DNA of 64,000 nt from assembly GCA_024398055.1 (NCBI GenBank), contig CP073749.1:2852594-2916593 (forward strand), given 5' to 3'. The notes below the pieces were generated by a model. It did not search any database. It saw only the letters and a list, made by a program, of their open reading frames with translations, and was not told where the DNA came from. Position 1 is the stretch's first letter; the number at the start of each line of letters is the position of its first letter. The position numbers were made by a program, and so were the translations under genes. The DNA comes from a bacterium SCSIO 12741. Lineage in GTDB: Bacteria; Bacteroidota; Bacteroidia; Flavobacteriales_G; Salibacteraceae. Below, one piece after another: positions 22,162 through 56,644 of this stretch.

Positions 22162-22662
22162 TCAGTCATAGCACTTTTCGCCCGATCGAAGCCACAGTCC
22201 CCAGACCTTGTCATAGGCATGCACTTTCTCCGTTGGCTGTCCGGCGGAATTGTACACCTCAAATCCGGCATTTTTCCATTCAAAGATGCCACCGTAGAGG
22301 TTGTAAACCTGCGTATAGCCCTTGGCTTTAAGTTGTTCGGCCACCTTTTCGCTTCGATAGCCCACAGAACAATATACAATGATGGGTGTGTCGTGTGATA
22401 AATGAGCTACCTGACAAGGATCAAATTCGTCGTAGCCGACCCATGCCGCACTGTCGATATGAGAAACTTCAAATTCTTTCTTCGCCCGGGCATCCAGGTA
22501 CACCCAGTTTTGAGCGCTATCAATTTCGCTTACTCCGATTTCCGGTACAGAATGACTAAGGAGTCCTTTTAGAAGCAAGTTGTAATCCGTACGTTCCACC
22601 CGTTGAGCTTGTCCCATTATGGTGGCGATAAGTAGCATAAATAGGGAGTAGACTTTCTTCAT
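22162..22662 (-). CDS. Exported rhodanese-like domain protein
   Basis: Single rhodanese domain behind a signal peptide (MKKVYSLFMLLIATIMGQAQ), so probably periplasmic. The active-site Cys is residue 98 in the loop CSVGYRSE, which gives a six-residue loop as in sulfurtransferases. Other markers are WVYLDARAKKEFEVSHIDSA and the closing VYNLYGGIFEWKNAG. The ATG overlaps the xerD stop by four bases, so it is co-expressed with the recombinase, although a functional link is not apparent. The sulfur donor and acceptor are unknown. Confidence 0.9.
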   Translation of the reverse strand: MKKVYSLFMLLIATIMGQAQRVERTDYNLLLKGLLSHSVPEIGVSEIDSAQNWVYLDARAKKEFEVSHIDSAAWVGYDEFDPCQVAHLSHDTPIIVYCSVGYRSEKVAEQLKAKGYTQVYNLYGGIFEWKNAGFEVYNSAGQPTEKVHAYDKVWGLWLRSGEKCYD

Positions 22663-23306
22663 CGCTGATAGGCATGAGGGTGAAACTGCATAATGGTATT
22701 CTTCAAAAAATCGCGGTCGAGGTGGGTGTAAATTTCGGTAGTGGTAATGGATTCGTGGCCCAACATTTCCTGTACAGCTCGAAGGTCGGCTCCTGCTTCT
22801 ACAAGGTGCGTAGCGAAAGAATGCCGGAAACTGTGAGGACTTACATTCTTATTTATTTGTGCCCGGGCTGCTAGATCCTTTACGATGGTAAAGATCATAA
22901 CCCGGGTGAGGCGTTTCCCCCGTCGATTGAGAAACAAGAGGTCTTCTTCACCGGGAACAATGTCGAGGTGGTTGCGAATGGCCTCCATGTAAATTTTGAT
23001 GTACTTCATGGCTACACTACCAATAGGGACCAGCCGTTCCTTGTTTCCCTTACCAATAACCCGAACAAATTCATCCTCAAAAAAGAGGTTCGAAAGTCGA
23101 AGTTCAACCAATTCACTAACCCGCAGACCACAGCTGTACAAGGTTTCAATAATGGCTTTGTTTCGGGTTCCTTCAGGTTTACTCAGGTCAATGGCTGCAA
23201 CCATAAGGTCGATTTCTTCCTTGGCCAGAGTAACCGGTAACTTGCGACCAATGCGAGGACTTTCCAACAGTTCGCTGGGATCCGTATCAATCACATTTTC
23301 GAGCAA
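22659..23306 (-). CDS. xerD: Tyrosine recombinase XerD, catalytic part (frameshifted)
   Basis: Catalytic domain of a XerC/XerD-type recombinase that resolves chromosome dimers at dif. Catalytic residues are visible: Arg in YSCGLRVSELVEL, Lys in VIGKGNKERLVPI, HSFRHSFATHL, LGHESITTTEIYTH and a Tyr in this last motif. The frame continues upstream without a real start: bases before 23306 on the minus strand read RTQARIISGIKAFYRYLL, the expected linker. A missing C in the run at 23357-23361 separates it from the N-terminal domain. The intact protein would be about 300 residues, normal for XerD. Neighbours are aroQ (divergent) and the rhodanese gene. Confidence 0.88.
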   Translation of the reverse strand: MLENVIDTDPSELLESPRIGRKLPVTLAKEEIDLMVAAIDLSKPEGTRNKAIIETLYSCGLRVSELVELRLSNLFFEDEFVRVIGKGNKERLVPIGSVAMKYIKIYMEAIRNHLDIVPGEEDLLFLNRRGKRLTRVMIFTIVKDLAARAQINKNVSPHSFRHSFATHLVEAGADLRAVQEMLGHESITTTEIYTHLDRDFLKNTIMQFHPHAYQR

Positions 23307-23335
23307 CAGATATCTGTAAAACGCTTTGATTCCGC

Positions 23336-23566
23336 TTATGATTCGGGCTTGAGTGCGGGGGCAATTTCAAATTCTTGCAACCACAATAGAAAAGCCCTTA
23401 AATCTTTGAGATTGGCGCGAAGTGGACTGGGATTGTCAGCACCGAAGGCCAGAAATTGGTAGAGCTTGTCTACATCTCTCAGGTAGGCATCTATGGAATT
23501 GGCAGAAAGTGATTTTTCCAACTGAAGGTATGCCTCAAATCCTTTGATATAGGGGTCAGGTGCCAC
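23336..23566 (-). CDS. xerD: Tyrosine recombinase XerD, N-terminal SAM-like domain (frameshifted)
   Basis: DNA-binding core domain of XerD: YIKGFEAYLQLEKSLS, then ANSIDAYLRDVDKLYQFL and FLLWLQEFEIAP. The frame is open to a TTG at 23585-23587, but the GTG at 23564-23566 places YLQLEKSLS about 14 residues from the start, as is usual, and is preferred. After EIAP the frame runs into ALKPES and a stop, whereas one more C reads EIAPRTQARIISG and joins the catalytic domain. Confidence 0.82.
   Translation of the reverse strand: MAPDPYIKGFEAYLQLEKSLSANSIDAYLRDVDKLYQFLAFGADNPSPLRANLKDLRAFLLWLQEFEIAPALKPES
23357..23361 (-). other. Frameshift site in xerD: one base short in a G/C run
   Basis: Five Gs on the plus strand (five Cs in the coding strand) where six restore XerD. 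This is the fourth such defect in the window and the second in a housekeeping gene. Confidence 0.8.
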
Positions 23567-53268: not shown

Positions 53269-53626
53269 GGGTATCATTTATTCAGATAAAGCTCTGAAAA
53301 TACTTGAATATCAATGGGTACATCTTGAGTTTTGTGTGAAGCGCATAAAATCAATCTGTGAAAGTGAGTAATTGCTTGCCATCAGTCCGATCATACCTGG
53401 TCGTAGTTTCAACCTAGGACGAAGCTGTTTTTCCATTTATTCGAAATCCGGATTTTACCTGATATTCGGAATGAATGAAGGTTTTTGATTTGAAATGGTT
53501 AGATTCGATTTAGACCGCACTGAATTTCTCTTGTTTCAGGATAGTTTTGAGTTTTCACTTGTAATCAACTGAATTCACGATGACAATAAAGATCATGTTA
53601 TAATACCGTAGTTACCTCATATTAAT
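53269..53626. other. Gene-free spacer between padR and the VOC gene
   Basis: About 360 bases with no credible reading frame. It holds one REP-like palindrome (53393-53426) and is visibly AT-rich. No promoter with both boxes could be placed with confidence, although TATAATACCG at 53599-53608 is a possible -10-like stretch before the VOC gene. Confidence 0.5.
53393..53426. repeat. REP-like palindromic element, degenerate copy
   Basis: ATACCTGGTCGTAGTTTC followed by AACCTAGGACGAAGCT. It is an imperfect palindrome that matches the perfect one at 54935-54970 in both arms and flank. The two copies bracket the VOC gene and the small gene at 54601. Confidence 0.6.
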
Positions 53627-54934: not shown

Positions 54935-54970
54935 CATACCTCGTCGTAGTTTTAAACTACGACGAAACTA
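54935..54970. repeat. REP-like palindromic element, perfect copy
   Basis: TCGTCGTAGTTT and AAACTACGACGA form 12-bp perfect arms around a single T (54941-54965), with CATACC in front as in the copy at 53393. Such elements in Bacteroidota are often mobilised by RAYT-type transposases, but none is encoded in the window. Confidence 0.75.
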
Positions 54971-54990: not shown

Positions 54991-55158
54991 ATGAAAAATA
55001 TGGACTCTATGAGTTCTGAAACCAACCTGGCATTTTCGAATTCTAAAAGCAAAACAGATATAGTCAGGGCGACGAGAATACTATCGAACCATTTTTTGGT
55101 TGATATTCAGGAGGTTGAAGATGAGTTCGGTAGTAAAGGAAAGGTAAGCGTTTCATAG
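54991..55158 (+). CDS. Possible short protein, 55 codons
   Basis: An ATG-started open frame (MKNMDSMSSETNLAF...) of 55 residues, ending in DEFGSKGKVSVS. It has a reasonable composition and lies between the REP-like element and the attC-like structure. There is no promoter, domain or homology that can be recognised, and it could be chance or a degraded gene. Confidence 0.25.
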   Translation: MKNMDSMSSETNLAFSNSKSKTDIVRATRILSNHFLVDIQEVEDEFGSKGKVSVS

Positions 55159-55197
55159 CCCGCCAAAGCTGCGCTTTGACGTTTAATGAGTAAATTT

Positions 55198-55289
55198 AAA
55201 CCAAAAGACACAGCTTTGGCTACTGTCTGTGTAGTTCGAAAGGTTCATGCCTTGAAATCCCACACTACGCACAGCCAAAACGTTATCGG
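55198..55289 (+). other. Integron attC-like structure, upstream site (weak)
   Basis: Inverted arms TTTGGCT...CTGTGTAGT (55215-55235, with five extra bases) and ACTACGCACAGCCAAA (55264-55279), followed by a core ACGTTATCGG. The asymmetry and the GTTA core resemble the 3' side of an attC site, but the 5' core (AAC at 55199-55201) is poorly placed. It lies 25 bases before the lipoprotein gene at 55315. Confidence 0.4.
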
Positions 55290-55314
55290 TTATAGCGAAT
55301 TGAAAAAGAAATTA

Positions 55315-56262
55315 ATGAAGGAGACTTGTGCATTCTCAATTCTGGCAATCTCGATTGTTTGTGTTCTGGTTTCCTGTAGCACTGACTCCAAAACCCAGCA
55401 GGAATTTCGAAACCCAAACTATATATGGTTTGTTCCTAATGGGGAATCTGAAGGGAGATGGGTGGAAATAGACTATACAAGCAACTCTCCATTACTATCT
55501 TCCGGTCATTGTACAGAGTTCTATTCGAATGGAAGCGAAAGGAGCAAGTATAATTTGAATAGACACGGAAACCCAGACACTATTTTCTACCTGAACTTGG
55601 AGAGTTCAGTAACTCACTATTCTATAACGAATGAAGATCGGTTAACGAGTTATTTCACAAGAGACGGAGAGTTCGAATCGTATTTGAACGATGGCTCGGT
55701 TGCCATGTTCGGAATTGTGGAGGACCACAATTTGATAGACTACAAATGGAGTGGGAAAATGGCCAGTTTCTATGAATTACTTTCCGCGAAAACAAGGGTA
55801 TGGCGAAGTTTTGAGGCCTTTCTCAAAGAAATAATATCAACCGCTAAAGAACGAAATCAAAGTGGTGCTCTGTATATTGAAGAATCACGAACTACAACGC
55901 TGGATTCACTTAGATTGAATCTGATTGATTCGATTATGATTACATCAGAAACGCTGACCAAATTGAAGGTTGAACAAGGCTGTGAAGACCTCAAACACTC
56001 AACACTTCAATTCATCAATGGGACCAAATCACTGTCTGAAAATGAATGTGGCGAAATAATTCAGAAAATGAAATTAGAGTTTACAGACCAAAATATTGAT
56101 TCATTGATGGCTGTGGTTCAAATTATACTCGATAAGTCGAAAATCGATGATGAAAATGCTGAGAAAGCCTACATGAACTGGAGTAGGAAATTTCAACCTG
56201 GAGAATATATTGTTCCGCTGTTACACGAGGTGAACAAACAAAAAACAATGCTTGACAATTGA
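55315..56262 (+). CDS. Predicted lipoprotein, possible integron cassette gene
   Basis: A 315-residue lipoprotein. The frame is open from 55186, but the ATG at 55315 begins the signal peptide MKETCAFSILAISIVCVLVSC, and the upstream part falls on the attC-like element, so this start is chosen. The mature part begins with GESEGRWVEIDYTSN and MORN-like short strands (HCTEFYSNGSERSKYNLN), and ends in helices. It contains no recognised catalytic motif. The gene sits between two attC-like structures at 55198-55289 and 56290-56387, as a cassette would. Confidence 0.68.
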   Translation: MKETCAFSILAISIVCVLVSCSTDSKTQQEFRNPNYIWFVPNGESEGRWVEIDYTSNSPLLSSGHCTEFYSNGSERSKYNLNRHGNPDTIFYLNLESSVTHYSITNEDRLTSYFTRDGEFESYLNDGSVAMFGIVEDHNLIDYKWSGKMASFYELLSAKTRVWRSFEAFLKEIISTAKERNQSGALYIEESRTTTLDSLRLNLIDSIMITSETLTKLKVEQGCEDLKHSTLQFINGTKSLSENECGEIIQKMKLEFTDQNIDSLMAVVQIILDKSKIDDENAEKAYMNWSRKFQPGEYIVPLLHEVNKQKTMLDN

Positions 56263-56289
56263 GTTTTGGCGAAACGATAAAGCAAAAAA

Positions 56290-56387
56290 CTATAACACCA
56301 TGTCATACCACATGCCCACACAAACCCGCCCGCAGCATGCTAAAAGCTATGCTCTTTCCTCGGCACGTGGCATACAGTTGTTACGTG
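56290..56387 (+). other. Integron attC-like structure, downstream site
   Basis: Arms CTATAACACCATGTC-ATACCACATGCC and its imperfect inverse GGCACGTGGCAT...GTTGTTACGTG (56362-56387). Core AAC and GTT trinucleotides lie at the outer ends, two bases on the left arm are extrahelical, and the internal spacer folds again (AGCAT...ATGCT). On the bottom strand the two mismatches become G-T wobbles, as expected for attC, which recombines as bottom single strand. No integrase gene is in the window. Confidence 0.55.
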
Positions 56388-56644
56388 TATGATTCCCTAA
56401 AAACCGAAGTGTTAGAACTTAGAACCAACCTGAATCGACTGCTATAATTGAGATGGTCGTGAAATTTTCGAAACTCAGAATACAACTGAAGAAACCAAAG
56501 ATTTCCCAAAACCCTATCTCGTTGCCTATGTGCTATAGAAAAAGAGAAATTCGGTAAAAATCTAAAGGTGAATTGTAGAAAGTTTGATTTCGTGCTTAAA
56601 ACCAGAAAGTGAGAGTTAGGACGAGTCTGAAAACGAGTGCGAAG

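Follow-up and report, generated by a model that had tools for sequence, protein, structure and literature searches.

The lipoprotein gene described here is probably a stranded, decaying cassette of an integron-like, non-IntI system of the Bacteroidia. It lies in a 64-kb window (the whole stretch of DNA that was analysed, 64,000 nucleotides; G000:C1:2852594-2916593) of a complete 5.1-Mb Bacteroidota genome, G000, and is flanked by two sites that lie 1 kb from each other, one of them complete and the other a half; neither is a canonical attC. As we picture the system in its living versions, a recombinase of ~380 aa lies beside a primary site just past its own stop codon, where cassettes are inserted; each cassette comprises a single co-oriented gene or a few of them, with a folded hairpin site behind. 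The likely substrate is the folded bottom strand, with AAC and GTT paired and a 16-18 bp stem carrying conserved G.T wobbles, and strand exchange would likely fall between G and TT. The arrays, the structure and orientation of the sites, the complementarity of cassette ends, the attI-like junction and the linkage of recombinase and sites can be read from the sequences; we infer that the recombinase performs the reaction, that its substrate is single-stranded, and where exactly the crossover lies. Because the cognate recombinase is gone and the upstream site has lost half, the cassette would be immobile in this genome, although its downstream site might still be used in trans.

The lipoprotein gene and its flanking sites

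The 315-aa product carries an N-terminal lipoprotein-type signal, as read from its sequence, and a Pfam search assigned it to no family. The first-pass annotation had placed the gene between two imperfect inverted structures and had suggested a lone cassette or CALIN-like remnant (a CALIN being defined by two or more attC sites inside 4 kb and the lack of an integrase). The look of a lone, recombinase-free cassette holds up, with attC-like structures at both sides and a bottom strand that folds better; of the two structures, the downstream one is a complete site, but the upstream one is only half of one (Table 1). An Rfam search of the window returned tRNA only.

Table 1. Positions in the window of the putative cassette, its gene and the parts of its two sites
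Feature	Position	Strand	Basis or remark
Long-variant recombination site, remaining half (right arm L'-R' plus loop)	55126..55284	+	homology to L030
Inner hairpin of the upstream site	55162..55220	+	inverted repeat, 25-nt arms, 76% complementary
Presumed cassette start, GTTATCGGTTA	55282..55292	+	R' position by homology; crossover presumably between G and TT
Cassette gene (315-aa putative lipoprotein)	55315..56262	+	ORF
Complete attC-like site of the cassette	56286..56390	+	R2 10.5 bits, architecture scan, strand folding
Downstream site R'', AAAACTATAAC	56286-56296	+	AAC at 56294-56296
Downstream site L''	56302-56316	+	
Downstream site inner hairpin	about 56335-56354	+	
Downstream site L'	56362-56375	+	
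Downstream site R'	from GTT at 56380 (56380-56382)	+	

In the downstream site, the AAC at 56294 and the GTT at 56380 close a stem of 14-15 bp with one extrahelical C, bottom-strand G.T wobbles and an inner hairpin, so that the outer ends, extra base, hairpin and wobbles noted at first pass are all borne out. Calling either flanking structure an IntI-type attC proved mistaken: RYYYAAC/GTTRRRY is found in neither, and the family to which we compare them has no conserved extrahelical bases. Folded with AAC and GTT paired, the bottom strand reaches -13.8 kcal/mol, against -7.7 kcal/mol for the top strand; the generic folding energy is ordinary (z -1.0). An architecture scan of the + strand of the 64-kb window ranked this site first with a score of 13.0, and each of 12 shuffled controls gave 0-2 matches of at least 12.5. 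The site is placed 32 nt past the lipoprotein stop codon in the correct orientation with no T-run behind it, and BLAST against its own genome returned only the self-match. The covariance model R2 (built from 72 sites and replacing R1, which was built from 11 complete ones) matched it weakly, with an E value of 0.25 in 6 kb; R1 had found only the upstream half in the window (E 0.48).

For the upstream site, alignment to a complete site from a same-family genome (L030) gave 84% identity over 159 ungapped positions, with 25 mismatches, and showed the outer left arm R''-L'' to be missing; we sought that arm elsewhere in the window and did not find it. The GTT of R' lies at 55282-55284, R2 matched positions 55157-55291 with 21.4 bits, and BLAST against the own genome revealed a second copy at G000:C1:346 kb (E 1e-5). 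The inverted structure noticed at first pass is thus real but had been misread: it belongs, as the inner hairpin, to a long site of which half remains, and the same hairpin is found within the complete sites L030 and L036. Both window sites appear to resemble the Bacteroidia family, the downstream one weakly.

The two ends of the putative cassette match at 5/8 nt, against 3/8 for the alternative, which is weak given that 8.5% of random pairs reach the same figure. A distant homologue of the lipoprotein (30% identity over residues 12-142) occurs at L277, in another family, where it sits in a clean cassette (cassette start GTTATGCGGC, site start GACCGCATAAC); since that homologue is a clean cassette, the gene family can apparently travel in this way.

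The genes at 53.6-54.9 kb were considered as extra cassettes and set aside, as R2 with filters off found no site there. Nearby, a short hairpin element, ATACCT[C/G]GTCGTAGTTT..., occurs in two copies (window 53393-53430 and 54936-54966, +), one of them a nearly perfect palindrome, positioned downstream of or between small genes. These hairpins were rejected as sites: they have no AAC/GTT ends, and the perfect form was found in 0/194 loci.

Elsewhere in G000, the genome-wide search called for at first pass returned no IntI, no cognate recombinase and three sites outside the window, and the statement that no integrase is nearby can be extended to the absence of IntI from the whole genome. The four sites found by the model are two at 346 kb, 575 nt apart, one at 3,482 kb and the window half site. 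The 346-kb pair forms a clean single cassette with an AHSA1-domain gene (G000:C1:346052-346901; L022 10053-10902, -), and the 3,482-kb site (G000:C1:3482374-3482511; L143 1501-1638, -) is solitary, the model having found no partner. The N-terminal-domain profile of the cassette recombinase, described below, has no match in G000, whose only tyrosine recombinases are two Xer-like proteins and one distant 526-aa protein; unlike the Bacteroidia recombinase, the Xer-like genes have no array. The XerD-like gene in the window (22659-23560, -) has a frameshift near 23340, with the N-terminal part in another frame, from a sequencing error or a real loss.

The site family and its arrays

Sites of this family are present in 185/247 sampled Bacteroidia genomes and in 32 of 35 same-family genomes, where many are serial and in the same orientation. 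The first-pass view that such structures are rarely described in this kind of bacterium is therefore to be replaced by that of a kind of site common in the class, with a dedicated non-IntI recombinase. Nor are the structures conserved parts of flanking genes, the condition named at first pass as counting against a cassette: in relatives, the sites stand in arrays whose cargo changes.

Most sites are 125-140 nt long, and many copies are 125-126 nt with a conserved loop sequence; there are also short variants of 60-90 nt and long ones of about 200 nt. They share AACA on the left, (C)CGTT on the right and top-strand A/C mismatches that become G.T wobbles on the bottom strand. The stem arms of the 11 core sites align without bulges, wobbles being found instead, and among the bases preceding AAC in 97 sites only the last is conserved (Y). 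Stem covariation is pronounced: 92% of cells are paired, compensatory changes occur at 16/16 pairs, and the score of 0.688 compares with 0.16 for shuffled and about 0.05 for slid controls. That score is favoured by an alignment fitted to the structure, though the initial MAFFT alignment already had compensatory changes at 10/16 pairs. In 125 of 158 sites the bottom strand folds more stably than the top one (p 3e-15).

Of 127 intervals that separate neighbouring sites by 250-2500 nt, 118 have a co-oriented longest ORF, its stop codon falling a median of 8 nt ahead of the next site. A site in an integron carries a left half-core that was formerly attached to the start of the same cassette; those two sequences are therefore complementary, and the right half-core next to it belongs to the following cassette. 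The same pattern is seen here over the 8 variable nucleotides compared: in 75 consecutive pairs from the family, R'' matched its own cassette start at 5.55 of 8 nt and the adjacent R' at 2.54, and in 74 pairs from loci outside the family, unused in model training, the values were 6.12 and 2.76 (shuffled, 2.46, sd 0.16). At the eighth position R'' mostly has C and the R' complement mostly T, giving a further G.T wobble when the bottom strand of the circle folds. Judged by sequence, the end complementarity over these 149 consecutive pairs is the signature of integron cassettes. R'' pairs with its own cassette start and not with its neighbour, a pattern that independent repeats would not give.

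Several defence systems lie each between two sites: a Pycsar cassette (PycTM plus PycC, L104 7106-8353), a Lamassu cassette (LmuA plus LmuB, L103 10983-13808) and a type III restriction-modification pair (L103 14345-18639).

The array recombinase and its attI-like junction

A Pfam tyrosine-recombinase search identified a ~380-aa protein encoded directly ahead of several arrays, with a XerA/IntI-like catalytic domain and an extra N-terminal domain of ~75 residues. The recombinase-plus-array pattern is repeated in Winogradskyella ursingii, Seonamhaeicola aphaedonensis, Algibacter onchidii and Algoriphagus ornithinivorans, and at 15 further loci the recombinase shares its orientation with every downstream site (60 of 60). 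According to the N-terminal-domain profile, the recombinase is present in 104 of 247 Bacteroidia genomes. Sites occur in every one of these (104/104) as against 81/143 of the others (Fisher p 1e-18), which leaves 81 genomes with sites in which the recombinase was undetected. Draft genomes bearing the labels Firmicutes, Spirochaetota and archaeon (L217, L219, L223) also contained relatives of the recombinase, reflecting misbinning or a wider spread.

In 11/13 loci the first cassette joins 9-81 nt past the recombinase stop codon. We scored a junction as attI-like when the complement of the first site's R'' was found as GTT plus at least 6/7 nt, no more than 120 nt after the stop codon; with R'' taken from other loci and sought at the same places, this gave 0/156. 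An initial unanchored version of the test was weak, many 9-mers reaching 7 matches by chance, and anchoring on GTT sharpened it. The junction beside the recombinase is thus an attI-like primary site, of a kind that G000 lacks, and inverted repeats often stand ahead of it when inspected by eye.

The predicted structure of the whole recombinase is closest to XerA (5hxy) and the integron integrase 2a3v. The N-terminal domain is itself predicted confidently (pLDDT 88.6), but a PDB sequence search and Foldseek gave nothing significant for it. Weak DUF5710 matches were found in 8/16 sequences, and a structural list headed by XPB chains (Z 6.4) also held HARP (Z 4.2), with all Z below 8. We treat this middling likeness to the damage-recognition region of XPB and to the HARP domain of SMARCAL1 as a lead only; our guess would be that the N-terminal domain reads the folded site.

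Relation to IntI integrons and competing explanations

Integrons share with this system a recombinase beside a primary site, co-oriented gene-plus-site cassettes and orphan arrays without a recombinase, and their sites share folding, strand bias, AAC/GTT ends and an R'' complementary to the own cassette start. The differences lie in both partners. Unlike that of integrons, the Bacteroidia array lies downstream of the recombinase and points the same way, and its R box is about 10-11 nt with a conserved wobble and no conserved extrahelical bases, in contrast to integron RYYYAAC. The recombinase has the extra N-terminal domain and lacks the IntI-specific insertion of ~42 residues: the latter is concluded to be missing because the active-site lysine motif lies 66-72 residues from RHS in array recombinases versus 109 in 14/14 IntI. 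Array recombinases score 177-212 bits on TIGR02249, below its cut-off of 265 bits, in matches split in two pieces around the insertion. VchIntIA (2a3v) is among the best structural matches, yet its I2 helix, which is IntI-specific and docks onto and reads the extrahelical bases of attC (PMC7790495), is absent from the Bacteroidia recombinase.

Xer proteins have the same catalytic fold: the recombinase's best matches are NF040815 (XerA-like) and the XerA structure. Xer enzymes of ~270-300 aa lack an N-terminal domain of this kind and are not known to mobilize arrays of cassettes. In a quick tree, IntI sequences form a separate clade, and some long-branch Xer sequences fall among the cassette recombinases.

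These comparisons bear on whether the lipoprotein cassette could be a CALIN, the remnant of an ordinary IntI integron with canonical attC sites whose IntI has been lost. The architecture, AAC/GTT ends, bottom-strand folding and cassette order would all be the same, and IntI is common elsewhere in the phylum (105/395 genomes). However, neither the own genome nor any of 35 relatives has an IntI above the cut-off, and among the class genomes listed in our IntI survey only G071 has one. A scan for canonical attC (RYYYAAC/GTTRRRY plus fold) found sites near IntI loci but none in 7 arrays or in the window, and R2 found no site in 10 IntI loci. IntI as the mover of these sites is thereby largely refuted, and we regard a CALIN origin as very improbable. 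Even less credible is that dispersed hairpin repeats (REP/MITE-like elements or ends of single-strand transposons) flank the gene by chance, with no cassette movement. The many copies of uniform length with a conserved loop and a strand-biased stem would suit such elements, but independent repeats would not leave one copy's left end complementary to the right end of the copy one gene before it, nor would they be co-oriented with genes and recombinase. The coupling of ends refutes this reading for the family.

A narrower doubt concerns the downstream structure, which might be a chance hairpin or terminator, leaving the upstream half site as the only real relic and a gene that was never a cassette. 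The modest R2 match of 10.5 bits (E 0.25 in 6 kb), the ordinary folding energy (z -1.0) and the 5/8 match of the cassette ends are what one would then expect. Against this stand its place as the best + strand architecture match in the window, 32 nt past the stop codon in the right orientation, the missing T-run, the clear bottom-strand bias and the homologous gene that is a cassette elsewhere (L277). We consider a chance hairpin unlikely, and the stranded cassette of the Bacteroidia system remains our preferred reading, on evidence that is thin within the window itself.

In Bacteroidetes, surveys by IntegronFinder with IntI and attC models had yielded In0 only, integrases lacking cassettes, until a single complete integron was reported from Salinibacter (PMC9024848). 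The integron literature that we searched describes IntI-based integrons only and no such system; subscription journals and preprints were mostly outside that search, and an earlier description is possible. On the sequence evidence we class the system as functioning in the manner of an integron without being an IntI integron. The I2 helix has been taken as the innovation that enabled integron integrases to use folded single-stranded sites (PMC7790495). We give an even chance to the proposal that a Bacteroidia recombinase without I2 captures cassettes via folded single-stranded sites, their wobble geometry being read by the N-terminal domain, as a second solution to cassette capture through folded DNA. 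With integron anatomy found class-wide in the absence of I2, the role of that helix becomes directly testable. The sites, present in three quarters of the sampled Bacteroidia genomes, also point to a large and probably unseen gene-capture resource, and Pycsar, Lamassu and type III restriction systems have already turned up among the few cassettes examined.
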